A DNA stretch of 64,000 nucleotides from Methylobacter tundripaludum SV96 (GTDB lineage Bacteria; Pseudomonadota; Gammaproteobacteria; Methylococcales; Methylomonadaceae): contig NZ_JH109153.1 of assembly GCF_000190755.2 (NCBI RefSeq), forward strand, positions 558,001 to 622,000, written 5' to 3'. The translations under genes were made by a program, and so were the position numbers. Of this stretch, positions 303-12,812 are shown one piece after another. The first letter of the stretch is position 1; every line of letters starts with the position of its first letter. The notes beneath the pieces were generated by a model. It was given only the letters and a program-made list of their open reading frames with translations, searched no databases and was not told the DNA's origin.

Positions 303-1775
303 GTGAAAAATAGAATCTATACATCCGTGCTCTTTGGAATTAGCGTAGCCTTTTCGATAACCGGCCACACACAAACAAAACCCACGCACGCACCAGCCAA
401 AACCATTTATGCCGCCCCCCTTCACTCAAATCACACCAAACCGGATAATAAGAAAAACTCTGCATCAACTCTTAACGCCAAGCCAAGCACCAAAAAAGCA
501 CCTGTTACATCAAAGTCCGCCAACAAAAAAGACACTATTGCTACGACCAAGCTAACAACGCAAAAAAAATCTGCTACACCGCCTAAATCCACGATAAAAA
601 AGCAACCCACCGTTTCCGCCAAGTTAAAAAACAACAAACAATCTATTATTTCTCCCAAATCGAGCCACAAAACTAACGCTGTTGCTTCTTTTGATCCATC
701 CGCCAGAAAACATACCGTTATTTCTTCCAAGTCGATCGAATCCGTATCCGTCAAACCTCTCAACTATAAGAAACTGCAAAAACACACTCCCGCCAATCCG
801 GACTTGGATAATGCAGAGTCGGATCAAATCATCCACACAAATAATGACAAACAACTCCATCGAACCATACTCGAGCATCCGCAAATCACAAAAATCAACA
901 CGGCTCATGTATCTATAGAAACCTCCTTATTTCTGGATGGACTCGAAGCCGACTTATCAAAAGAGCTGATCCTGCAACTTACCGATATTTTTGCATGGGA
1001 CATCGATTTTGCCACCAATCTACGTCCTGGCGATCAATTCACGATTGTTTATGGAAAGAAAATAGTTGATGGCAAAGAAACCGACAGCGACGAAATCATT
1101 GCCGCTGAGTTTATTAACCAAGGATCCGCACACACCGCGGTCAGATACATCAATGAATTCGGCATTGCCAGTTATTACACCCCCGACGGACAGTCCATGC
1201 AAAGGGCTTTTTTAACGACGCCTGTTGACTTTGCAAAGATCAGCTCCCCTTTTGACATGCACCGTAAGCACCCCATACTTAACAGAATTCGCGCTCACAA
1301 AGGCATTGATTATGCCGCAAGAATCGGCACACCCGTAAAAACAACAGGGGACGGAATCGTCACCTTCAGCGGCAACAAAGGCGCTTATGGACAAGTGGTC
1401 ATTGTTCAACATAATGACCACTACGAAACACTTTATGCGCACATGTCCGATTTTAAAAAAGGCTTAGCAGTCGGCAATCATGTTAAACAGGGCGATGTTA
1501 TCGGCTTTGTGGGCCAAACCGGTCTGGCCACCGGCCCCCACCTACATTATGAGTTTCATGTGGACGGGCTTTATCGCGACCCCGAGACGGTTAAAATACC
1601 GCATTCAATGCCTATAAGCAGCGTATTACTGGCCGACTTCAATGCTCAAACCCAGCCGTTCTTTACTCAACTTGTTCAGGCCAAAGCCAAAAGTTTATTT
1701 GCAAAAACCCCTTCGGCAATTGCTCCCGGCATTGCCCTACCTCCTGCGTCTATGCAGTCGTCTCGTTACGATTAA
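303..1775 (+). CDS. M23 family murein DD-endopeptidase, exported
   Basis: A 490-residue peptidoglycan hydrolase of the LytM/M23 type, expected to cut peptide cross-links in the periplasm. Residues 1-24 look like a signal peptide. Residues 25 to about 165 are a low-complexity Lys/Thr/Ser/Pro-rich spacer. A Csd3/OapA-like domain follows (FATNLRPGDQFTIVYGKK). The LytM domain holds the zinc ligands H332 and D336 (HKGID) and the HxH pair H413/H415 (GPHLHYEFH), so it should be active. The start is GTG at 303 with no convincing ribosome site; a nearby alternative is possible. It ends 9 bp before anmK, so murein cutting and recovery of anhydro-MurNAc are probably co-expressed. The basic spacer may help bind the wall; that is inference. 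Confidence 0.88.
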   Translation: MKNRIYTSVLFGISVAFSITGHTQTKPTHAPAKTIYAAPLHSNHTKPDNKKNSASTLNAKPSTKKAPVTSKSANKKDTIATTKLTTQKKSATPPKSTIKKQPTVSAKLKNNKQSIISPKSSHKTNAVASFDPSARKHTVISSKSIESVSVKPLNYKKLQKHTPANPDLDNAESDQIIHTNNDKQLHRTILEHPQITKINTAHVSIETSLFLDGLEADLSKELILQLTDIFAWDIDFATNLRPGDQFTIVYGKKIVDGKETDSDEIIAAEFINQGSAHTAVRYINEFGIASYYTPDGQSMQRAFLTTPVDFAKISSPFDMHRKHPILNRIRAHKGIDYAARIGTPVKTTGDGIVTFSGNKGAYGQVVIVQHNDHYETLYAHMSDFKKGLAVGNHVKQGDVIGFVGQTGLATGPHLHYEFHVDGLYRDPETVKIPHSMPISSVLLADFNAQTQPFFTQLVQAKAKSLFAKTPSAIAPGIALPPASMQSSRYD

Positions 1776-1784
1776 CCAAAACCG

Positions 1785-2942
1785 ATGCCTGAACTTTATA
1801 TTGGACTCATGTCCGGAACCAGCCTGGATGGCATTGACGCCGCTCTTGTGGATTTTAAAAACCATAAAGCCCGTCTTGTCGAATTTGAATATCTGCCTTT
1901 TCCCGACGATGTTCAAAGTACAATCCAGCACCTTAGCAAGCCTGACACGCTAATTTCGCTCAAAGAATACGGCACAATGGATGCCCGACTCGGCCACTTA
2001 TTCGCAAAGGCCGTTAATGCCTTGCTTGCTAAAGCCGACATTCCCGCCTCATCGATCAATGCCATCGGCAGCCATGGACAAACCATTTACCATGCGCCTG
2101 ACATCCGATTTCCTTTTTCCCTGCAAATCGGCGATCCCAATATAATTGCCGAACTTACCGGCATTACCACCGTGGCCGATTTCAGACGCCGGGATATTGC
2201 AGCCAAAGGCCAAGGCGCACCGCTGGTTCCGGCTTTTCATCAAGCCGTTTTCCACCACCCAAATGAACATCGCTGCATCGTAAATATCGGCGGCATAGCC
2301 AATATTACCGTCTTGCCTAAACAGCAGTCGGCAGAAGTCATCGGCTTTGATACCGGCCCCGGCAACACCTTAATGGATCTATGGATCAAGCTGCACCGGA
2401 ACCAATCGTATGACAAAAGCGGCGCTTGGGCCAAAACCGGCAATATCGATCATGGTTTGGTAGCGCTATTAAAACAAGATGCTTATTTCAACGCCGCCCC
2501 GCCAAAAAGCACCGGCAAAGAATATTTTTCACTTCCCTGGATTTATCAGTATTTCGACGCATTCAGTTACAAAGCCGAAGACATACAAGCCAGCCTGTGT
2601 TTTTTGACGGCGATAACGATTTGCGATGCGATCAAAAAGCACGCACCAGCTACTGAGCGCATATTGATTTGCGGCGGCGGCATTCACAATGAATATTTAC
2701 TGGAACTCATCCAACAAAACATTGAATGCCCTGTTGAATCAACAGAGCGGTACGGCCTTCATCCAGACCATGTTGAAGCCGTTGCTTTCGCGTGGCTGGC
2801 CAGACAAACCATGAACAATCTGCCGGGCAATCTTAAAGAAGTAACAGGGGCGATTGAGTCTGTCATTCTTGGGGGAATTTATCAGGGAAACAAAAAGGGC
2901 GACACCCTGTCGCCCAACGAGGGGGGAGAAACTATAAAATAA
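1785..2942 (+). CDS. anmK: Anhydro-N-acetylmuramic acid kinase
   Basis: A 385-residue member of the AnmK family (E. coli AnmK is about 370). The enzyme opens and phosphorylates 1,6-anhydro-MurNAc in the cytoplasm, giving MurNAc-6-phosphate for wall recycling. The N-terminal phosphate-binding motif LMSGTSLDGIDAAL is intact, as are the central motif GFDTGPGNTLMDLW and the late CGGGIHNEYL segment. The last 15 or so residues (GDTLSPNEGGETIK) look like an extension of the usual C-terminus. The start ATG lies 9 bp after the M23 peptidase stop. The stop codon abuts, without a single spacer base, the stop of the convergent erpA gene. Confidence 0.95.
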   Translation: MPELYIGLMSGTSLDGIDAALVDFKNHKARLVEFEYLPFPDDVQSTIQHLSKPDTLISLKEYGTMDARLGHLFAKAVNALLAKADIPASSINAIGSHGQTIYHAPDIRFPFSLQIGDPNIIAELTGITTVADFRRRDIAAKGQGAPLVPAFHQAVFHHPNEHRCIVNIGGIANITVLPKQQSAEVIGFDTGPGNTLMDLWIKLHRNQSYDKSGAWAKTGNIDHGLVALLKQDAYFNAAPPKSTGKEYFSLPWIYQYFDAFSYKAEDIQASLCFLTAITICDAIKKHAPATERILICGGGIHNEYLLELIQQNIECPVESTERYGLHPDHVEAVAFAWLARQTMNNLPGNLKEVTGAIESVILGGIYQGNKKGDTLSPNEGGETIK

Positions 2943-3275
2943 CTACGCGGAAAAAGAAGACCCGCAACCGCAGGTAGTGGTCGCGTTAGGGTTACGGATA
3001 ACGAACTGAGCGCCTGACAAATCTTCTTTATAATCGATTTCAGCGCCGGTTAAATATTGAATACTCATCGAGTCAATCAATACCGTGACACCGCCGTTTT
3101 CAACGCAGGTATCATCTTCATTGACTTCTTCATCAAAAGTAAAGCCATATTGAAACCCTGAACACCCCCCTCCTGAAACATAAACTCTCAGCTTCAGATT
3201 ATCATTACCTTCCTCGGCTATTAATTCACCCACCTTGGAGGCGGCGCTGTCAGTAAAAACTATCGGATTAGACAT
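2943..3275 (-). CDS. erpA: Iron-sulfur cluster insertion protein ErpA
   Basis: A 110-residue A-type carrier that passes [4Fe-4S] or [2Fe-2S] clusters to apoproteins, including isoprenoid-pathway enzymes. The three conserved cysteines are present: C38 in [12 protein letters not shown], and C102 and C104 in the C-terminal CGCGSSFSA. Length and ending match ErpA better than IscA or SufA, and the anmK/erpA/argC neighbourhood supports the assignment. It is convergent with anmK with zero intergenic bases, so transcripts of the two must overlap. A 97-bp gap separates it from argC upstream. Confidence 0.95.
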
Positions 3276-3372
3276 ACATGTAACACTATAAAAATGAAGT
3301 TGGAAGAAATTATGACTATACCCAGCTTTTTAGTCAAGAATTATGAAGGTGTGTACAACTGATTATTTGCCC

Positions 3373-4404
3373 CTACGGATAAAGCGCAATTATCTTTAAT
3401 CCCGAGTCTTCCTTTAGCCCGAACATCAGATTCATATTTTGCACCGCCTGCCCCGCCGCGCCCTTAACCAGGTTATCAATCACCGATAACACCACGATAG
3501 TTTGACCGCCCTGCGGCCGGTGAATCGAAATCTGGCAGTTATTGCTGCCCCGTACATTTCGGGTATCAGGATGCGAACCTTGCGGCAATACATCAACAAA
3601 CGCTTCATTGGCATATCTTTTTTCGTACAAAGCCTGCACATCATCCAGGTTTCCATGCGCCTGACCATATAAAGTAGCGTGTATCCCTCGAATCATCGGC
3701 GTCAAATGCGGCACAAAGGTCAATCCGACCGATTTTCCAGCCACCAACTCAAGCCCTTGAGCAATCTCAGGCAAATGCCGATGGCCGCCAACCGCATAAG
3801 CTTTAAAACTCTCGCCGGTTTCACTCATTAACGTCGCCAACTCCGCCTTGCGCCCCGCCCCGCTGACACCGGATTTAACATCGGCAATTAAATGCTTAAC
3901 ATCAATCAGATCGTTTTCAAGTAACGGCAAAAATCCCAGCTGCACAGCGGTTGGATAGCAGCCCGGACAAGCGATTAAATTACTCTGTTTAATTGCCTCG
4001 CGATTTAGTTCCGGCAAACCGTAAACAGCTTCCGCGATTAAATCAGGACAGGCGTGCTCCATGCCATACCATTTGCTCCATTCCTTTGCGTCTTTTAACC
4101 TGAAATCGGCGGACAGATCGATAACTTTTACGCCACGCGCCAATAACTGCTCCGCCATCAGCATCGCCGTGCCGTTCGGCGTCGCAAAAAACACCACATC
4201 GCATTCGGCCAAGGTTTCGAGCTCAGGCAAGCTAAATACCGCATTGATAGCGCCGCGCAGACTGGGATAAAGCGCATCCACCCTAAGTCCGGCATCGGCA
4301 CGCGACGTGACGACCGTCACCTCCACATCCGAATGCAACGCTAAAATCCGCAATAGCTCAACACCGGTATATCCGGTTCCGCCCACAATACCTGCACGAA
4401 TCAT
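3373..4404 (-). CDS. argC: N-acetyl-gamma-glutamyl-phosphate reductase
   Basis: A 343-residue enzyme of arginine biosynthesis (type 1 ArgC) that reduces N-acetyl-glutamyl phosphate to the semialdehyde with NADPH. The Rossmann motif [10 protein letters not shown] is at the N-terminus, the catalytic cysteine lies in ACPGCYPTA, and GGHRHLPEI supplies the active-site histidine region. I start it at the ATG at 4402-4404 because AGGA precedes it by about 8 bases and the family begins MIxAGIVGG; a GTG six codons upstream would contain that ribosome site. The gene faces away from the island: its promoter region is the native half of the duplicated argC/qor junction. Confidence 0.95.
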
Positions 4405-4436
4405 CTGTTTTATCCTACCCACACATTGTTTATGAA

Positions 4437-4552
4437 AATAACTGAGGCATATAATAACCGCAACTTAGCTTATTGACGATGTTGTAACTATGCCGCCTCC
4501 TGAACAGATGATTGCCATTGAAATTGACAACGGCGTCTTAAAACCGGCAAAG
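4437..4552. repeat. Left copy of the ~115-bp island-flanking direct repeat
   Basis: This segment repeats at 12699-12812 in the same orientation. I count about 12 substitutions and one 3-base indel, i.e. roughly 89% identity. It covers the argC/qor intergenic region (GGCATATAATAACCGCAAC) and the first 20 codons of a qor-like gene. Most coding differences are silent or conservative, so both copies evolved under selection before one was truncated. This looks like two diverged alleles brought together rather than a fresh duplication. Confidence 0.85.
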
Positions 4553-4772
4553 CACATGACAGGTTATCGTTTTGTTCAATCCTGAGAACCTTTCGTGTCG
4601 CTAACTGCACAGGAGCATCCTCACCAACGGCGATAGGCGCTCCTTCCGACCATAACACAGCATATTGCCCAAGTCGCCGCTTGCGATCCAGCGTCTTCGT
4701 AACAGCTAAACGCAGACAGTCGAGCATGGCTTGTGTTTCCGGACTGGGGGTTGGGGGCGTTTGATCACTCAT
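4488..4772 (-). CDS. Small hypothetical protein, C-terminus running into the island junction
   Basis: A 94-residue frame. Residues 1 to about 75 look like a genuine small protein (ETQAMLDCLRLAVTKTLDRK, then RRLGQYAVLWSEGAPIAVGE). This resembles a widespread family of short uncharacterised proteins, but I know no function. The last 20 or so residues are read antisense through the qor fragment, so the native C-terminus was probably replaced when the island inserted. It is the last gene of the minus-strand island operon, 90 bp after vsr. A short frame from about 4842 to 4765 overlaps its start by a few bases and could couple translation. A toxin-antitoxin or accessory role is possible but unsupported. 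Confidence 0.5.
   Translation of the reverse strand: MSDQTPPTPSPETQAMLDCLRLAVTKTLDRKRRLGQYAVLWSEGAPIAVGEDAPVQLATRKVLRIEQNDNLSCALPVLRRRCQFQWQSSVQEAA
4490..4585 (+). pseudogene. Truncated 5' fragment of a qor-like reductase gene
   Basis: The frame starts with ATG at 4490. Its first 21 codons (MPPPEQMIAIEIDNGVLKPA and a lysine) parallel the start of the intact reductase at 12749 (MPFPKQMIAIEIENGVLKPA). After codon 21 the similarity stops abruptly and the frame ends at TGA 4583-4585. It is the stump of a 327-residue reductase and marks the left junction of the island. It stands in the native position beside argC, so it may be the resident allele, with the intact gene at the right end supplied by the incoming DNA. 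Confidence 0.8.
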
Positions 4773-4861
4773 TGTTGAGCCTTTGTTGCAAAAGTTGAAA
4801 AAATTCGTGATGGAATACCAGCCCAGGCATTCTGTCGTTGTTCATGAAACAAAATGTCTGG

Positions 4862-5290
4862 TTAGCCAGCGCACAGAGATGTGATAGAACCAATACATTC
4901 TCGAATAATTCTATTAAGAAGTTCCTCTTTTTTTGTTTCGCATTCCCAAATAACACAAACACGCCATCCTTGTCGGCGGAGCTCTTTTTCTGCTCGCTCA
5001 TCTCTTTCCATCGTTCCTTGGAATTTTGTTACCCAAAATTCGTGGTTGAATTCGGGTATCGTTGCGCGTTTACATCCCGGATGTTGATGCCAAAAACAGC
5101 CGTGGACAAAAATACAAAGATGATACCGAGGGAGAACAATGTCAGGCTTTCCGGGTAAATCTTTCCGATGCAATCGGAAGCGGTAGCCCATTTTATGCAA
5201 CATTCGTCTGACTCGGATTTCAGGCGTAGTGTTTTTTCCTTTCACTGCCGCCATATTCAGTGAACGCTGCTCGGAACTAAGTTTGTCCAT
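4862..5290 (-). CDS. vsr: Vsr (very short patch repair) DNA endonuclease
   Basis: A 142-residue Vsr nuclease. The family nicks beside T:G mismatches produced when 5-methylcytosine deaminates, protecting sites modified by a partner C5 methyltransferase. Visible are the entry SLNMAAVKGKNTTPE, the catalytic aspartate D50 (GKPDIVLPRY) and the His/Cys metal cluster (FVHGCFWHQHPGC, residues 62-73). The late WRVCVIWECE strand is also present. Length is close to E. coli Vsr (156). It is separated by 32 bp from the receiver-domain gene and belongs to the same transcript as the methyltransferase. Vsr-fold nucleases also serve as restriction enzymes in some systems, so a role as the cutting effector here cannot be excluded. 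Confidence 0.92.
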   Translation of the reverse strand: MDKLSSEQRSLNMAAVKGKNTTPEIRVRRMLHKMGYRFRLHRKDLPGKPDIVLPRYHLCIFVHGCFWHQHPGCKRATIPEFNHEFWVTKFQGTMERDERAEKELRRQGWRVCVIWECETKKEELLNRIIRECIGSITSLCAG

Positions 5291-5322
5291 GTATTGAGTT
5301 GCTAACCCTATTTCTTTTTCGA

Positions 5323-7116
5323 CTAGGATTGAAAGTCAAGCCCAACTCTTGAAAATGAAACTGCTAACCGTTGTAAAAGATTCAGCGCATATTCGTAGCG
5401 AAGATGAGCTACTACTTGTGCGGAAGGTTCAAGCACGATTAATTGTTCTTGTTGGTTGCCAATTCTGCGTAGACTGATAATTCTGGCATCATCAGTAAAT
5501 ATCCCCTGGTTAATCGCGAACATTTGCTCCCATCTAGGAGTTGAGGATGTTGAATCGTCTGGTAAAAAGTTAAATGCCTTTATCGCTGAATCTATTTTTA
5601 GAAAAAGATGGTTTCCGTTGTTTACCAACTTTAAGGCTTTTTTAAGATTATTTTCTTCATATAACCGTACAGCTTTAAACGGCATATTCGGTTTCAAGTT
5701 TTTCGACCAATCTTTTTTCTCTTGCCCAGGTACTAAGTCGCAGGCAGGAGAAAGACAAAGCCAATACTCGGTGTCTATTTTTAAAACATGTCCAGTCGTT
5801 AGATGATTTCCCTCAATGGTTTTAGTGCAGTGGTAACAGTTTGCTGCGGCTAGAATTTGAGTTCTGTCGCTATTAGAACCACCATCAGGACAATGGGTTT
5901 CGTATGCTTTTACAGAACCAAGGCCGCAAAGATAGTCAGTCACTTTAGATGCAAAGTGGGCAACTTCGGTTTGAACTGAATCTCCCAGACCTTCCCAATG
6001 CCTTTCAATAGTTTTATTAACATTTAGCTTTCTTTGCGAAGCGTCATCAATCAGCAACTCATCAAACCAAGCTATCTGTAAAAAGGAATTTTCCAATATC
6101 TCCTGTTCCGCCAAAGTACCCCGTGTATCAAGCGCAGCTCGCATTTTTGTCATCAGTAGACGATGAGGCTTGGGACACCAGTGATTTAACGCTTCAATCA
6201 ATTTATCCGGCAATGAATCTGGATTATTTTGCTCTTTATGGATAACGGTTATAAATAAGCGACTGGTTCTTATCCAGTTTATGCCGTTTTCGGAAGAGCG
6301 GAAGGCGACATGCCCCAGATTGCTTGGAGACAATTTGCTGTCTAACTCTTTTTGTTGCTCATGAACTAACCAATGCAATAATAATGAAAGCTTCAGTTTG
6401 GATGGTTTATTTGGATTACTATTAAATAATAAAACAGCTTCTTGGAATTCAGGCATGTCTTTTATTTTTTCCCAATCAATGTCGATTTGGTGATTTACAA
6501 TCAAGTAAGCACTCTCGTTAATTGTTATTTTTAATTTATCCGTAATTCCTTCCTCTTTTAATTCCCATTCCTCAATATAATCATTCACCTCATCTAAATT
6601 TTGAGATTTTAGTGTTAGAGCAGAATTATTTGATGAAAGACCTAATGCAATTTCCCCTATGACGCGATCAAGGTTACCAGCGTCGATCCCATAACCTTTT
6701 GTATAAATGATGACCATATTGAAATAATCGTTATCAGCCAGCTCTCTAAGGATAGCTATCGCTTTATCTCCGCTGCCGTCATTACCGTCAAGATGATAAT
6801 CTAGAATCATCAGGTCGCTTTGATGTAGGTGAGACGCGATGCATTGATCGTCATTCGTCGAAATTGTTTTTCCGTCATGAACGTCTACCAGCCAACGTCG
6901 GTCTTTATGTCTACAGGCCTTCAGAATATTTCTAACCTTTTCGGCATTTTCCTCTGTTCCGCCCCTTCCTTTTTCCCCATACCATTTTTCAGCAATCAAC
7001 CCATCTAACGACGGAAACTCATCATCTATTACAACCACCGTGCGAATTGGGTCTATATAAACTTCCTTGATCAGGTCGCGGTACTCAATCGGTGTTGCAG
7101 CGACAGAATTATTCAT
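5323..7116 (-). CDS. Receiver-domain protein with a large uncharacterised C-terminus (island system)
   Basis: A 597-residue protein. Residues 26-145 look like a two-component receiver: acidic pair D31/D32 (VVVIDDEFP), likely phospho-acceptor D106 (LMILDYHLDG), and a beta-4 strand with T139/K140 (VIIYTKG). The remaining 450 residues match no domain I recognise. Around 430-460 there are paired cysteines (CYHC, CLSPACD) that could bind zinc. The C-terminus (RYEYALNLLQRLAVSFSRVG) is helical and probably an interaction surface. No DNA-binding helix-turn-helix is evident, so it is not an ordinary transcription factor. It overlaps the upstream ATPase gene by 8 bp, with AAGGAG placed before its ATG, implying coupled translation. 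A relay from the kinase-like ATPase to this protein is a reasonable inference. Confidence 0.8.
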   Translation of the reverse strand: MNNSVAATPIEYRDLIKEVYIDPIRTVVVIDDEFPSLDGLIAEKWYGEKGRGGTEENAEKVRNILKACRHKDRRWLVDVHDGKTISTNDDQCIASHLHQSDLMILDYHLDGNDGSGDKAIAILRELADNDYFNMVIIYTKGYGIDAGNLDRVIGEIALGLSSNNSALTLKSQNLDEVNDYIEEWELKEEGITDKLKITINESAYLIVNHQIDIDWEKIKDMPEFQEAVLLFNSNPNKPSKLKLSLLLHWLVHEQQKELDSKLSPSNLGHVAFRSSENGINWIRTSRLFITVIHKEQNNPDSLPDKLIEALNHWCPKPHRLLMTKMRAALDTRGTLAEQEILENSFLQIAWFDELLIDDASQRKLNVNKTIERHWEGLGDSVQTEVAHFASKVTDYLCGLGSVKAYETHCPDGGSNSDRTQILAAANCYHCTKTIEGNHLTTGHVLKIDTEYWLCLSPACDLVPGQEKKDWSKNLKPNMPFKAVRLYEENNLKKALKLVNNGNHLFLKIDSAIKAFNFLPDDSTSSTPRWEQMFAINQGIFTDDARIISLRRIGNQQEQLIVLEPSAQVVAHLRYEYALNLLQRLAVSFSRVGLDFQS

Positions 7117-9820
7117 ATTTAGCTCCTTTAAAATCGATCATGAAATTTGCCCCCGACAACTTTTTCAGATCGCCGTTTTTAATATAATCAATGGTATGTC
7201 CGCCTGCCGCTAAGTTGGCTCGACACAGATAAAGCCCAACACCACGCCCGCCGCGAAGTTTTCGGGTAAAAAACAAGGTAAACAGGTGTTTAAGATCATC
7301 ATCTTCCACCCCAGGCCCGTTATCGGCGATAACGACCTTGCCGTTGACAATATCCAGCAATATCCTTTTCGAGTCCTCACCGGTCTGACATACCCAATAA
7401 GCGGCGTTGTTAACCAGATTGATGAATACGGGATAGATACGTGCTGGCTGTTCGTAGATGCTGAAATGCCTAAACGCTGGTGTTGCGTCCAAAATAATGT
7501 TTCGGTGCGTTAAGTTGTCGCCCATAAAACCCTGAATATATTCAACGAGCTTATTGCCGGTGAGCCAGACTTTCATTTTTTCGCCCGATAATTTCAGCGG
7601 CGATAAAAAGTGTAGCCTATCTGTCAATGCCTCATGCGCCGTTTTGACGGCTTCATAGGCCTGTGTAGCCTTGATTTGATCCGGCATTTCGCGCAATCCA
7701 CGGGAAATCGTCATATCCAAGCCTTCTATCTCATGACCGATAAATTCGACGGTAATGCCGAGTTGCGCCAGCGAATTCAGATCCACAAGCTTTTTGTTCA
7801 ATTCCCACGACTCTCCCAGAGTAAAACTAATCATCGTTTCGACATCGATGCTTTCTTGAAGATTTTTAAGAACTGAAATATACGGTTCAAACACCTCAGT
7901 ATTTTTCCGATCCTGCCTGTCGCGTTCCCTATCGAGATCATCAAGGACCTGAGTCAGTGTGGTGCGTTGGTGTTCCAGATCATCCAAACGCGGCAGCATT
8001 TCAAGATGATAGCTTTTGTTTCGCTCATCGGTCAGCTGCGAAATACGTTGTAGTTCCGAATTTAGAATTTCTTTGGCTTCCTGACTCCATTTACGTAAGC
8101 GGTTGTGCAGAAAGGCAGCGTTCCGATTCAACTCTGAATACGCAGTTTCTGCGGGCGATTTGGGCTTTAAGATTTCCAGCTTTTTAATCAACGTGTCGTT
8201 CAACTGCTCAAGCAGTTCGGCGACTTCCCTACTGTCGCGGCGATAATCTTTGTATGCGTCTTCCAATATACCCAAAGTTTTGGGCGGCACTCCCAGAGAC
8301 AATTCTCGAACATCATTCTTCAAATCTGATACTCGTTCTCTGAGTGCCAGAATTTGCGTTTCGTCGTCAGATAGCCCTATTCTTGCTTGCTCTGCAAATT
8401 CTTGAAGTTCAGTCAACGACTTGCGTAACTTGGGAGAGAGCTCTTGAAGATTCTTTCGAAACTCTTTGCGTTTACGAGCATTAACCTTCTTTTGTGCCTC
8501 TTCGGCTTTAGCTTTTTGCCTTAAATTGGCATTATCTTCCTGAATTGACGGTAACAATTGTTGACGCACTTCCGCGTTAGTACCGAAATATCTATAGGCG
8601 GATGCGATTAGAATATTCTCGACAATATCCCGGAAAATTTTCGATGCCTTATTATCTATAATACCTTCACGCCCCGCCTTATCTCTGAGATTTGGATTGT
8701 GTTCCCGTGTTAATGCCACTCGCCCGAAAGTTCGTCGATTTGACCAGAATTCGCGCCCTGCGTTAAAACTGCGTCTTTTCTCAATTTCAAAAAAATCGTT
8801 ATCTTCCCTCCCGTAAGGCATTACTCTCAGGGCGTTTCTATACATCAAAAGTCCACCATACCGTTCTGATTTTTCTTTTAAACTAGCCCAAATTGCAGGA
8901 GGGAGTGTTGAATTAGTTTCTAATCCTTCATAAGATCCTAAGCGAATACGAAAAAATCCGATTTTACTGTCGGATCGGGTTGAAACATTTACTTTCGGCA
9001 GGATTTGAATTTCGCCATCCAGCCATTGACCAAATGCCTTGATGCGGCCTCTAAAAATACCGAAATCGTCAACGGTACCAACTATGATATGCTCAAGTTC
9101 TTCAAAGTCGCCCAGGTCGAACTCACGTTCATCGGAAATAATCGAGCGACTCAATAGACCTTTCCACGCTGTGACCGAAAAATGAAAGTCTTCTGCGGCG
9201 TAACCATCCGTGATTTCAGCCTGATCGACAAAGGGATCAGTAAAATTATGTAAAGTCTCATACAAGCGTTGTTGTGCCTGTTTTGCGGTGTTTCCTTCGT
9301 TCAATGCGACTTGACCATCCAATTGAGCTTCCAGATCGAAAGAAATATTCCCCATCAGCAGTGCCGTACCGTGTGTTTTTGTACCGTTCCAGATCGGCCA
9401 TTGCTGCAAATGCCGGTTTTCAAAAACAGCAGCTATCAGCACTCGCTCAATTGCTTCCCGAGTCAGTGGTTTATTTTCGGATTGTTCTAATTGGTCAAAA
9501 CTCAGCCAAGCGGCTTTAATGCGCTCCTTTCTTGCCAAGTCATAATCATCGTCTGGAAGCTGCTTATCTTCTGACTTTTCCGGGTGATCTGAAGTAACAG
9601 TAATTTGTTTTGCACTTACCGTACTGGGATCATTGTCTGGCAAATTACCCAGCAATTGTTTAAACATGTTTGGCAGGTGGCCTAACAATTCGTCTTTGTC
9701 GAAAAATTCAATTATTGGAATTTCGATGTCTTGCAGATAGAGAAATGGATTTTCAAATAGCCGCCAATCGATTAATGCGGCAACAAATGGCTGGTCTATT
9801 CTTTTTGAAATCAGCAGCAG
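7109..9820 (-). pseudogene. Island ATPase, large C-terminal fragment (gene split by an IS630 element)
   Basis: This frame continues the ATPase whose N-terminus is at 10935-11286. Joining 10935 through one TA to 9820 restores an uninterrupted frame of 1021 residues from ATG 11286. The fragment holds a central region of unknown fold (ALRVMPYGREDNDFFEIEKR, then RRTFGRVALTREHNPNLRDK), long coiled coils, and a histidine-kinase-like end. That end has an H-box-like motif (VEFIGHEIEGLD, His near 814), an N box (NLVNNAAYW), a G1 box (VIADNGPGVEDDD) and a G2 box (GRGVGLYLCRAN). If expressed from the inner TTG at 9688 it would yield 859 residues lacking the N-terminal ATPase. Whether that product functions is unknown; the original gene is broken. 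Confidence 0.85.
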
Positions 9821-9857
9821 TAAGTAGTAATGCGAAAGTTATTAGGAAGTAAATTTA

Positions 9858-10331
9858 TTGTGTCAAACTGGAAACGATTGCAATAACAGACAAAAATTAG
9901 GAGTCCACCTGAAATTCATCGCCAAACTGACCCCGGAAGAGGAAGTAACGTTAACCGAAGCCTATCGTAACCACCCATTATTCCGGGTTAGACAACGGGC
10001 ACATGCTATCTTATTGAATAATAGAAGGTATGTAATTGCACGGCTGAGCGAATTGTTTGAGTCCCAGCATGAGACTGTCAGCTCATGGTTAGACAAATGG
10101 GAAACAGAGGGATTAATAGGGCTTTACGATTGTCCACGAAGCGGTAGGCCTGTGCGCTTCACGGTTGAGGAACAAGCCGTTTTTCTGGGCTATATTGACA
10201 AAAACCCACACCAACCCAAGGCCGCCGCAGCACGATTGCTGGAGGAGACGGGCAAGGAAGCCAGCCTTGACACCTTTAAACGAATTTTAAAAAAAGTGCC
10301 TATGCCTGGAAACGTTGTCGGCAATCAGTGA
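9858..10331 (+). CDS. IS630 transposase, first frame (DNA-binding half)
   Basis: 157 residues with paired helix-turn-helix segments typical of the IS630 N-terminus (ARLSELFESQHETVSSWLDK, then WETEGLIGLYDCPRSGRP). The frame ends at a TGA just after ATG of the second frame. A run of seven A's followed by G at about 10290 (TTTTAAAAAAAGTG) precedes the overlap. A -1 slip there would join this frame to the next as ...LKKSAYAWKRCRQS..., giving one transposase of about 356 residues, the usual family size. The start is uncertain: TTG at 9858 is the longest choice, but AGGAG at 9900 lies just before a CTG at 9909. Confidence 0.85.
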   Translation: MCQTGNDCNNRQKLGVHLKFIAKLTPEEEVTLTEAYRNHPLFRVRQRAHAILLNNRRYVIARLSELFESQHETVSSWLDKWETEGLIGLYDCPRSGRPVRFTVEEQAVFLGYIDKNPHQPKAAAARLLEETGKEASLDTFKRILKKVPMPGNVVGNQ

Positions 10332-10927
10332 AGGGAAAGCGTAATGAAGCAGATTTCCAACGTGATAAGGCATATCTGAAGGCCTTGAAACAGCAAGAAG
10401 ATGATGGGGAATTGAAGCTTTACTACTTTGACGAATCCGGATTTAGCACGACACCCTGTGTACCCTATGGATGGCAACGGATTGGCGAGACCCGACAAAT
10501 ACCCTGCTATCGTAGCAAGCGCATGAATGTGTTAGGTTTTTTGAGTCGCAGCAATGATCTGTTTTTCCACAGCTCCGAACAATCGGTGACAACGGATACG
10601 GTTGTCAATGCCTTTGATGCGTTTGTCGAAACGTATGCAGGCAAGTACGAAGAAACTAAAGTGCCGTGCTGTGTGGTGTTGGATAATGCTTCCATTCATC
10701 GTAGCGGCGTATTCAAAGAAAAGCTGGCGGGCTGGCAACAACGTGGTGTGTGCTTACATTTTCTTCCGCCTTACAGCCCGGAGCTGAACCTGATCGAAAT
10801 ACTCTGGCGTAAAGTTAAGTACGAATGGTTGCCGCTTGATGCCTATCAAAGTTACGGACACTTGAAAAAGTGGGTGTTGGAAATCCTGAGTGACGTCGGT
10901 AAAAAATTCCAAATAACTTTTGCGTAA
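10328..10927 (+). CDS. IS630 transposase, second frame (DDE catalytic half)
   Basis: 199 residues carrying the full catalytic triad of the family: D in YYFDESG, D in VVLDNASIH, and E in PPYSPELNLIEILWRKVKYE. It sits in the -1 frame relative to the upstream half and overlaps it by 4 bp. It probably has no independent role and is made as a fusion by ribosomal slippage at the A7G tract. Alternatively the frame change is a disabling mutation, but the exact homopolymer position and the good continuity of the fused sequence favour programmed slippage. Confidence 0.87.
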   Translation: MKGKRNEADFQRDKAYLKALKQQEDDGELKLYYFDESGFSTTPCVPYGWQRIGETRQIPCYRSKRMNVLGFLSRSNDLFFHSSEQSVTTDTVVNAFDAFVETYAGKYEETKVPCCVVLDNASIHRSGVFKEKLAGWQQRGVCLHFLPPYSPELNLIEILWRKVKYEWLPLDAYQSYGHLKKWVLEILSDVGKKFQITFA

Positions 10928-11286
10928 CTACTTAACGATCCCAAGTTGGCTGAGGATAGTCGGCCTATGCCTTTTTGCCCCTGTTTTGGACGAAACGGCA
11001 GACCGTTACGATCTGAGTCCGGCGTTACTGTATTGGAGGCTTTGGACTCGGTACCGACCACCAGCCATTTTTCGATAAACTCTTCTCGGCTCATACCGTG
11101 ACCATCGTCGACTATCGCTGCAATCGGCACTTCGCCGTCGAAAATATGAAGTGCTACTTCCCGCGCATAAGCGTCGTAGGCATTTTTCCACAATTCGGAA
11201 ACAGCGGTCGGGCAATCGGCAATCTGCTCACGACCGAGATGGTCTATAGTTCTGGCTCGGGTTTTAAATGCTGCGGTTTCAATCAT
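10852..11286 (-). pseudogene. Island ATPase, N-terminal GHKL fragment (cut by IS630)
   Basis: The first 117 residues belong to a GHKL ATPase of the MutL/MORC/Hsp90 kind: N box E31/N35 (ELWKNAYDAYA), Bergerat glycine motif (IVDDGHGMSREEF, D60-G64) and the lid GQKGIGRL (about 103-110). From 10932 down to 10852 the frame reads into the insertion sequence and ends in a foreign tail. I start it at ATG 11286. A TTG at 11322 would add 12 residues and overlap the methyltransferase stop by 11 bp. MORC- and MutL-like ATPases are known in bacterial restriction-modification operons. Paired with a second, kinase-like GHKL module in the same protein, the original product had an unusual double-ATPase architecture. 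Confidence 0.85.
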
Positions 11287-11311
11287 GCGATTCTGCTGTA
11301 TCTTTGGGTTG

Positions 11312-12391
11312 CTATTTATCAAGCTTAAAGTTTAGGCCTTCCGCAATAGTGCGTAATAGAACTTCACCGAGTTTTACCGGTACGGCATTACCGATTTGTT
11401 CACCTGCGGCAATAAGCCCCCCCTTAAACACGAACCGATCTGGAAAGGTTTGAAAACGTGCGGCCTGTCGTAAGGTAATGCCGTGATGTTCGGTCGGATG
11501 TACAAATCTGCCTTTAGATGGATTAATGCAGGCCGTAGTCATCGTCGGGCCGGGCTGTGTCGGATCAATTCTACCGTAAACATCCTTATGTCCATTATGT
11601 TTTTCGTGACACGGCAAAACACGATTGGAGTCTCGACGACTACCGCCGTTTAAAGGCGTAGATTTGAATACTTCAATCAAATCGGAGGAATGATTCATGT
11701 GGATGTTATTTTCATCATCTTCAGGAACAGAATCTTTAAATACTTCAGTTGCCGGTATCCAAGGATGCAACGACGAATTTTTTTCTATTTCTTTTTCGAT
11801 GCCGTGCGTAGCTGCCGGCGGCCATACTGAATTAAATTCAATATCGGATCTTATGCCCAGTATGAATACTCTTTTTCTTCTTTGCGGCAAACCATAATCT
11901 CTGGCATCAAGAGTCACCGGCTGCATTAACTGGTATCCGGCTTTTTTCCCTTCTGCATAAAATGCGTCTAAAAACTTCTTATGTCTGGACCACAATATGC
12001 CAGGTACATTTTCCATAAGAAAAACTTTTGGCTTTAAGACTGCAACATATTCAAAATAACGCAGAATAAGTTTGTTACGGGGGTCATCGATACCTGCGTC
12101 CTTAATTCTATGGACTGAAAATCCCTGACAAGGCGGGCCGCCTAAGACAATATCGCATACAGCTCCATCCATAAAATGAGCATGCTTAATTTCTTCAGGA
12201 GCCAGTTCAAGTATATTTTTTTGATATAGCTTTGTTGAATTGCCTTCGATGAGATTTTGTCGGTACGTTGTACAAGCGTGGTTGTTTATTTCGATGGCAG
12301 CGGACACTTTGAAGCCAACATTTTTTGCTGCCAACGAGAATCCTCCGGCTCCCGCAAATAAATCTATACAATTCGGACGATTTTCCTTCAT
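11312..12391 (-). CDS. dcm: DNA (cytosine-5-)-methyltransferase
   Basis: A 359-residue C5-cytosine methyltransferase with the ordered family motifs: motif I DLFAGAGGFSLA (residues 10-21), motif IV GGPPCQGFS with catalytic C88, motif VI FLMENVPG, motif VIII QRRKRVF, and the C-terminal motif region with GNAVP. The target-recognition region lies between about 200 and 290, and its specificity cannot be read. It heads the island operon and a vsr gene closes it, matching the usual pairing of C5 methyltransferases with Vsr. With the ATPase gene broken, it may now act as an orphan methyltransferase. No clear ribosome site precedes the ATG. A 22-codon frame (12468-12400) ends just upstream and might be a leader; this is weak. 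Confidence 0.95.
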   Translation of the reverse strand: MKENRPNCIDLFAGAGGFSLAAKNVGFKVSAAIEINNHACTTYRQNLIEGNSTKLYQKNILELAPEEIKHAHFMDGAVCDIVLGGPPCQGFSVHRIKDAGIDDPRNKLILRYFEYVAVLKPKVFLMENVPGILWSRHKKFLDAFYAEGKKAGYQLMQPVTLDARDYGLPQRRKRVFILGIRSDIEFNSVWPPAATHGIEKEIEKNSSLHPWIPATEVFKDSVPEDDENNIHMNHSSDLIEVFKSTPLNGGSRRDSNRVLPCHEKHNGHKDVYGRIDPTQPGPTMTTACINPSKGRFVHPTEHHGITLRQAARFQTFPDRFVFKGGLIAAGEQIGNAVPVKLGEVLLRTIAEGLNFKLDK

Positions 12392-12748
12392 AAAAACTAT
12401 TACTTGTTACTTACAGGGCTCTTAGGTCTCTTGCGTTTTATCGTGTAGGGTACCTTATCGCGTACCATTTTCAAAACACCATCCCAATCTCAATAAAACT
12501 ACGCAAGCCAAGTAAAGTGAGCGTTGCCTCCCTTTTCAAAGCCCAACCGTACTAGAAATCTTGATACCCGAAAAAATAACCCGGTCATTCTGGTATTCGT
12601 AAATGATGCGCGGAGCGGGCTCTCCCCATATTTTAAAAATCCGTTTAAACCCGTCTAATCAGACGCCATCAGTGTTCCATTATTTAAGTTATCAGATCAA
12701 TAACTGCGGCATATAATAACCGCAACTCAGTTTATTGACGTTGTAACT
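12392..12748. other. Intergenic region with the right island boundary
   Basis: No confident gene. It should hold the divergent promoters of the methyltransferase operon and the qor-like gene. On the minus strand, short open stretches around 12600-12500 and 12468-12400 read like gene ends (...GGNAHFTWLA stop) but lack a credible start. They may be remnants of DNA displaced at the right junction. The last 50 bp belong to the direct repeat that begins at 12699. Confidence 0.5.
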
Positions 12749-12812
12749 ATGCCGTTTCCCAAACAGATGATCGCCATTGAAATAGAAAACGGTGTTTTAA
12801 AACCGGCAAAAC
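12699..12812. repeat. Right copy of the ~115-bp island-flanking direct repeat
   Basis: Partner of the segment at 4437-4552, same orientation, about 89% identical with a 3-base gap. Here the repeat continues directly into an intact qor-like gene. The pair encloses about 8.1 kb containing the methyltransferase/ATPase/receiver/Vsr operon and the IS630 copy. No integrase or tRNA lies at either end, so homologous or illegitimate recombination is more likely than site-specific integration. Confidence 0.85.

Follow-up and report, generated by a model that had tools for sequence, protein, structure and literature searches.

An insertion-interrupted methyltransferase–ATPase–receiver operon of Methylobacter tundripaludum SV96 as a putative phosphorelay-gated, methylation-guided anti-phage system

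Organisation of the locus

The 64,000-nucleotide stretch of the Methylobacter tundripaludum SV96 genome analysed here (contig NZ_JH109153.1, positions 558,001 to 622,000 of the forward strand; hereafter, the window) includes four genes arranged in one row, all on the minus strand, which encode a C5-cytosine DNA methyltransferase, an ATPase with two GHKL modules, a protein with a receiver domain and a Vsr mismatch endonuclease (Table 1). This set and this order had been proposed in an initial annotation made from the sequence alone, and Pfam or NCBIfam matches were obtained for each of the genes. The annotation had also begun the set at position 4586; the Vsr assignment was borne out by TIGR00632, but positions 4586–4861 are outside the Vsr gene. 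The methyltransferase contains the motifs PPCQG, ENVPG, QRRKR and GNAVP, the first of which holds Cys88, the residue named in the annotation. The reading frames of the ATPase and the receiver protein overlap by eight bases (7109–7116), and the spacing between the receiver and Vsr genes is 32 bases. The operon has argC on one side and an oxidoreductase gene on the other and is flanked by two direct repeats of approximately 115 bp; the sequence that these repeats enclose in the window showed no integrase gene. A 94-residue open reading frame (ORF; 4488–4772), located between argC and the Vsr gene and overlapping a direct repeat, had no match in Pfam, PADLOC or NCBIfam at the thresholds used.

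Table 1. Coordinates of the genes and other features of the operon in the window.
Feature	Position	Strand	Supporting detail
Direct repeat, argC-side copy	4437..4551	not assigned	87% identity to the other copy, 115 columns
Vsr mismatch endonuclease, 142 residues	4862..5290	-	TIGR00632, 145.3 bits (cut-off 97.85)
Receiver protein, 597 residues	5323..7116	-	Response_reg_2, 63.2 bits (cut-off 27)
Receiver Asp106 codon, phosphoacceptor candidate	6799..6801	-	
ATPase remainder: rest of the MORC-like module, long coiled coil, HEF_HK (DHp-like), HATPase_c (CA)	7109..9820	-	
His652 codon of the ATPase C-terminal piece, phosphoacceptor candidate	7733..7735	-	
IS630-family insertion sequence, 1114 bp	9821..10934	+	terminal inverted repeats
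Double-GHKL ATPase, N-terminal piece	10935..11286	-	Bergerat-fold motifs SELWKNAYDA, DDGHGM, GQKGIGRLSS
C5-cytosine DNA methyltransferase, 359 residues	11312..12391	-	PF00145, E 2.4e-61
Direct repeat, oxidoreductase-side copy	12699..12810	not assigned	

The two GHKL modules announced for the ATPase are present (HATPase_c_3 and HATPase_c), but the gene is not intact, being interrupted by an insertion sequence (IS) of the IS630 family, whose transposase occupies two ORFs (9858–10331 and 10328–10927). A search of the strain's own 4.85 Mb genome revealed 29 match places for this element. The insertion seems to be recent, because 19 other near-full-length copies are 98–100% identical. Both ATPase flanks of the IS, translated separately, are open and can be aligned with an intact relative (locus L011). 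Since the breakpoint is located just past the glycine motif of the GHKL domain, the strain probably has no working ATPase, and the system is probably inactive here; in principle, the C-terminal piece bearing the kinase domains could be produced by itself. The mechanically called ORF of the N-terminal piece starts at TTG 11322 and continues into the IS as far as 10852, and that of the C-terminal piece comprises 7109–9688; judging by L011, the start is likely to be ATG 11286 rather than TTG 11322. In a second relative (L148, 3070–6170; genome G437), a transposase gene at 4888–5856 appears to interrupt the receiver gene, and loci L041, L062 and L068 likewise have a split ATPase frame.

Predicted structure of the ATPase and the receiver protein

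The N-terminal piece of the ATPase matched HATPase_c_3 with 46.8 bits (cut-off 25), and the C-terminal piece matched HEF_HK with 26.4 bits (curated cut-off 24.1) and HATPase_c with 43.6 bits (cut-off 26.4). The fold was read from the predicted structure of the intact relative L011, not from the window copy. In that model, a MORC/SMCHD1-like GHKL module is joined to a histidine-kinase core by a coiled coil, in agreement with the initial annotation, which had proposed the joining of a MORC-like GHKL module to a histidine-kinase-like one. The GHKL domain together with the domain downstream of it matches SMCHD1, MORC3 and MORC4, and Hsp90 is likewise matched, so that a GHKL domain followed by an S5-like one in a MORC-type fold is a candidate assignment.

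The predicted structure of the receiver protein comprises a REC fold split by a mostly helical insertion of about 145 residues, and its C-terminal part is predicted to be helical and beta. Used as a whole, the receiver model gave nothing at E 0.001 or better against the Foldseek viral and pdb sets. Sequence searches with the C-terminal part found no recognised relative, and the receiver profile had a single match among PDB sequences (E 0.49). No recognised DNA-binding output domain was detected in this protein. Five residues of the C-terminus (one Gly, two Cys, one Asp, one Arg) are conserved in 8/8 sequences from two clades.

The candidate phosphoacceptor His was found in 72/72 aligned ATPases and the candidate phosphoacceptor Asp in 73/73 aligned receivers. 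Three plasmid rows were omitted from the fold alignments; loci with broken or oddly long ORFs were removed from the alignments by length limits, and further rows by hand. L048 (Brucella gallinifaecis) was left out of the fold and neighbour-family sets, while the comparisons of linkage, identity and tree include it. The suggestion of phosphorelay-controlled restriction thus fared unevenly: the residues expected of a phosphorelay are conserved, while the three core proteins showed no recognisable nuclease.

Linkage of the genes in related loci

The relatives were collected by searching a genome collection with the receiver alignment alone; the best 80 of 89 relatives and three plasmid matches made up 83 loci, with up to 10 kb fetched on each side, a set that is biased to the window's clade owing to its choice by receiver patterns and the limit of 80. 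A relative of the ATPase C-terminal piece adjoins the receiver gene in 83/83 loci, and a relative of the N-terminal piece is present in 82/83, the exception (L046) beginning at a contig edge. A C5 methyltransferase gene is next to the pair in 80/83 loci: it lies upstream in 65 and downstream in the others, with the same strand used in 11 of these and the opposite one in 4; the position in L034, L035 and L085 was assigned by hand owing to an over-long ATPase frame. The three loci without it are L025, which begins at a contig edge, and L031 and L044, with none nearby. In 21 related genomes taken as background, C5 methyltransferases were found in eight (15 match places, some being pieces of one gene) and Vsr in six (7 places). 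It is unlikely that the methyltransferase is linked to the pair through chance, because such enzymes are few in these 21 relatives yet adjoin the pair in 80/83 loci. The earlier idea of one linked system resembling restriction–modification (R–M) is upheld by these counts.

Homologues occurring mostly without a methyltransferase or Vsr would, according to the initial annotation, have spoken against its reading, and this applies to Vsr but not to the methyltransferase. A Vsr gene lies inside the fetched stretch in 35/83 loci, and in 12/83 it follows the receiver gene immediately and in the same orientation, as in the window; the stretches of the other 48/83, some of which stop at a contig edge, yielded none. 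On the receiver tree, built by a quick method and containing one very long branch (L077), Vsr presence changes at least 19 times and the methyltransferase position at least 6 times. Vsr was therefore rejected as a core part, and a conserved fourth gene was rejected as well, since none of the families obtained by clustering 910 nearby ORFs (blastp, E 1e-5) occurred in more than 11 loci. Judging by gene content, the core consists of three genes, for the methyltransferase, the ATPase and the receiver protein, and Vsr is accessory to it because only 35/83 loci have Vsr within the fetched stretch.

Other nuclease genes recur in the vicinity. A single open frame in L045 (5246–7042), directly before the ATPase gene, matches both Vsr and methyltransferase and is likely a fusion. 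Genes of mREase_II, the PADLOC family of methyl-directed restriction enzymes, were found near the core in four different arrangements (L021, 11872–13164; L037, 4183–5583; L039, 8829–10136; L044, 5543–6835), with a best model of E 2.1e-147 or better in each; three of these loci also have a C5 methyltransferase, placing a predicted cutter of methylated DNA beside a methylating enzyme. RE_AspBHI_N was matched by 4/142 neighbour proteins and HNH_2 by 7/142. The latter was confirmed by Pfam in L009, L056, L067, L084 and L085, and the ORF cluster of the L009 protein also occurs in L023, L043 and L045; a cluster of 190-residue ORFs (L022, L024, L050, L051, L052) was rejected as HNH nucleases, having no Pfam match above the cut-off. 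Beside the methyltransferase-less locus L031, the region 867–6281 contains a gene of a GHKL protein (HATPase_c_3, 97.7 bits) followed by two large ORFs, perhaps a second defence operon.

Clades and co-variation of the core proteins

A relative of the ATPase C-terminal piece (E 1e-30) is carried by 9/301 genomes of the order. Four of them belong to the window's clade (its own genome, two at 76% identity and one at 52%), and five have 26–29% identity. In the five loci of this sister clade, a methyltransferase and an ATPase are found nearby, mostly with a receiver and Vsr too. Two of them (L143, L144) have a four-gene order identical to that of the window; in L145, the opposite strand encodes Vsr; L147 lacks Vsr within the stretch and has its methyltransferase gene in the opposite orientation. 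The fifth (L146, 5848–9498; genome G379) has a 1217-residue ATPase frame directly before Vsr and no separate receiver ORF, possibly as a result of a fusion or a deletion; the HATPase_c match of this frame lies in its N-terminal region. Four sister-clade receivers score 98–151 bits with Response_reg_2, against 63.2 in the window, and four sister-clade ATPases score 94–104 bits with HEF_HK, against 26.4. Because the scores of the window are so far below those of the sister clade, the window seems to represent a divergent clade of the family underlying these two Pfam models.

Pairwise identities of the receiver and the ATPase correlate with r 0.92 (3403 pairs), and those with the methyltransferase give 0.31 for the receiver (3240 pairs) and 0.36 for the ATPase (3160 pairs); the pairs are not independent, and these values are descriptive. 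Loci L050 and L052 illustrate the pattern, with 94% identical ATPases and 93% identical receivers beside methyltransferases of 59% identity, which differ throughout their length. In the same two receivers, identity drops to 47–62% at residues ~540–600. The idea that Vsr and the methyltransferase travel as a pair was rejected, their correlation being 0.31 against 0.36 for Vsr with the receiver and 0.39 for Vsr with the ATPase. It appears that the ATPase and the receiver evolve as a pair and that the methyltransferase is replaceable, which would fit a sensor pair reading the methylation state and would fit less well an enzyme tied to one sequence.

The window departs from this pattern. Compared with L011, the methyltransferase is 95% identical, the ATPase C-terminal piece 76% and the receiver 44%, and the divergence of the receiver beside its ATPase weakens the pairing here. 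At the DNA level, identity is 88.7% over the methyltransferase and the ATPase start, 75–79% over the rest of the ATPase and 84% over Vsr. By these comparisons, the window locus is itself a mosaic relative to L011.

Genomic site, prophages and distribution

The gene argC was found in 11/12 other genomes of the same genus searched. In four (G371, G374, G376, G377) the argC junction is uninterrupted and holds a single repeat copy. Two genomes (G378, G379) contain different cargo between two repeat copies: one KAP NTPase/YCF48 protein in the former, and a DUF2357/PDDEXK_7/McrBC protein, an AAA_5 protein, a WYL regulator and two proteins with no family assigned in the latter. Different cargo stands beside argC in G380 as well, with the far side beyond the fetched stretch, and consists of type I R–M genes (HsdM_N/N6_Mtase, Methylase_S, ResIII/EcoEI_R_C) and an AAA protein. 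In G369, G372, G373 and G375, the far side of the site was not found within the fetched stretch.

In a virus collection, the receiver was found in six contigs, the methyltransferase and the ATPase in five and Vsr in one; the contig L157 starts with the receiver at its edge. Phage genes nearby were confirmed in four contigs. The core adjoins tail-fibre genes in L155, is near an integrase in L156 and near an endolysin in L159, and in L158 lies between the replication nickase and portal genes of a P2-like prophage. In P2, the genes old and tin are situated between gpA and gpQ, and old-tin and three of eight further systems cloned from this hotspot were defensive (Rousset et al., PMC9122126). Judged by its flanking genes, the L158 core occupies the same kind of site. 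The search of deposited phage records gave no receiver match and three weak partial matches of the L158 ATPase.

DNA similar to part of the ATPase was detected in 212/5426 E. coli genomes, covering 6–13% of the query among the matches listed. The three E. coli regions viewed contain the methyltransferase, the ATPase and the receiver, with no annotated Vsr in the stretch. Proximity to other defence genes would, according to the initial annotation, support a single system, and the type I R–M and McrBC-like cargo at the argC site and the old/tin site of the P2-like prophage agree with it. The site shared with R–M-type genes, the old/tin site and the prophages support a predicted defence role in a way that was not met in the literature covered.

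Proposed function and alternative explanations

The chances seem about even that the three genes constitute a mobile, phosphorelay-gated, methylation-guided anti-phage system, probably inactivated by the IS in the present strain. The linkage, the domain make-up, the conserved catalytic residues, the mobility and the sites shared with defence genes were established by sequence or predicted structure; self-marking by methylation, phosphotransfer, a sensed signal and an effector action would be consistent with them. In such a system, the methyltransferase would mark the host DNA, and the MORC/SMCHD1-like GHKL module would clamp or track DNA in an ATP-dependent manner and respond to unmarked DNA. 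The long coiled coil would convey the response and turn on the ATPase's own histidine-kinase core, whose conserved His would pass phosphate to the conserved Asp of the receiver. The C-terminal part of the receiver protein would then perform or recruit the anti-phage action, and Vsr, if present, would repair T:G mismatches arising from deaminated methylated cytosine. If this were true, a MORC-like DNA ATPase and a methylation mark would be coupled directly to a His–Asp phosphorelay, as a signalling form of restriction, and the role of prokaryotic MORC relatives could be tested in E. coli, where related operons exist.

A core that does not cut DNA is a possible, though somewhat unlikely, variant. 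The MORC/SMCHD1-type clamp would close on and silence incoming DNA lacking (or carrying) the C5 mark and would signal via the built-in kinase to a receiver protein with a new output domain. Such an immune system, guided by DNA methylation, would parallel MORC/SMCHD1 silencing in function, and Vsr and methyl-dependent nucleases would be optional to it. It is unlikely, if still plausible, that the ATPase and the receiver instead form an ATP-dependent type II-like restriction enzyme, with the cutting site of an undescribed nuclease in the receiver C-terminus and with the kinase and receiver domains serving as a structural switch and not as a phosphorelay. The GHKL module is related to BbrUII/HgiDII (NF050001, residues 12–135 of L011, E 2.2e-17) and to the PADLOC REase_II (E 1.1e-8), and the invariant residues of the receiver C-terminus, a part of a model with no Foldseek match, would suit a new active site. 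However, the NF050001 match spans only about 120/659 positions and reaches 62.9 bits against a cut-off of 550. A DNA methyltransferase is present, as in type II R–M, but no nuclease domain was recognised in the ATPase or the receiver and no Pfam nuclease model matched the three core proteins at the thresholds used, while all phosphotransfer residues are kept. The difference in methyltransferase between L050 and L052, beside a nearly unchanged pair, would also be awkward if the recognition sequence were shared.

Complete kinase and receiver residues would also suit a regulatory two-component system without a defence function, in which the pair would sense the cytoplasmic state and control the methyltransferase or other genes. 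Bellieny-Rabelo, Pretorius and Moleleki (2021; PMC8011034), who described this gene pair in silico, lean towards a signalling role and report that such genes are activated in potato tubers. This explanation nevertheless appears improbable: the receiver has no recognised DNA-binding output domain, and the sporadic distribution (9/301 genomes at E 1e-30), the prophage carriage and the sites shared with defence genes fit mobile defence better. It is highly improbable that the operon is a repair module for methylcytosine damage, where a MutL-like ATPase and Vsr would act on T:G mismatches at methyltransferase sites. Vsr does stand beside the operon here, and the ATPase N-terminus has weak MutL matches, but the fold matches listed for the N-terminal part are SMCHD1, MORC and Hsp90, Vsr was not found in more than half of the fetched stretches and changes often on the tree, and none of the 7 Vsr places in the 21 background genomes is farther than about 6.3 kb from a match to C5 methyltransferase, so that Vsr accompanies such enzymes generally. 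Defence islands gather unrelated genes, and other nucleases are also found nearby, but a chance assembly of unrelated defence genes that drifted together is scarcely credible, given that the linkage (83/83 and 80/83) is kept through rearrangements and in hosts from several phyla and recurs in the five sister-clade loci, one of them without a separate receiver ORF. For Vsr and the other nucleases, chance proximity is a possible explanation.

Comparison with known systems

The defence operon MZA includes a GHKL ATPase (MzaB), and Detocs is a two-component-like defence system; the gene sets of both differ from the one described here. The N-terminal piece of the window ATPase scored 13.8 bits with MzaB (cut-off 850), and for intact L011 MzaB is absent from the best 25 of 31 families listed at E 0.001. 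With classical two-component systems, the pair shares the DHp and CA fold, the receiver fold and the conserved His and Asp, but here the receiver is split by a long insertion and has no recognised output domain, and a MORC-like half takes the place of the sensor. BbrUII/HgiDII have a related N-terminal GHKL domain, although the match of L011 is far below the family cut-off.

MORC and paraMORC ATPases have been tied to R–M operons that also encode cytosine methylases and nucleases of the Vsr type (Iyer, Abhiman and Aravind, 2008; PMC2292703). In the predicted structure of the relative, the GHKL and downstream domains resemble theirs and those of SMCHD1, along with Hsp90, and their prokaryotic members occur in R–M operons. 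Here, in contrast, a coiled coil links the module to a histidine-kinase core, and a receiver protein is its partner; the text of PMC2292703 covered does not contain the word receiver.

The closest counterpart is the HEF_HK/Response_reg_2 system, whose domains were named in silico in PMC8011034, a study mentioned or cited in PMC10663231, PMC8895600 and PMC9953108. According to the part of the study covered, which reports no functional test, the two genes are linked in 91.6% of cases across 644 regions, with R–M genes over-represented; C5 methylases are frequently upstream, and Vsr, found in 20 genera, is mostly directly downstream of the receiver gene. In the literature searched, including that on PF19191/PF19192, no experiment on the ATPase/receiver pair was found, with most subscription papers and all preprints lying outside the search. 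The novelty suggested by the initial annotation, which knew of no named and tested system with this set, is not supported. The window ATPase and the adjacent receiver pass the HEF_HK and Response_reg_2 cut-offs, with a C5 methyltransferase and Vsr nearby, and match this system. They form the same pair with the same HATPase_c_3, HEF_HK and HATPase_c layout (group 1 of that study), and share with it the methyltransferase that is often upstream and the Vsr that, where present, is mostly directly downstream of the receiver; they differ in that the window's clade matches both Pfam models weakly and that the window copy is interrupted by an IS. The combination, including Vsr directly downstream of the receiver, was therefore already described in silico in 2021, and the window contains a divergent-clade, IS-broken copy of it.

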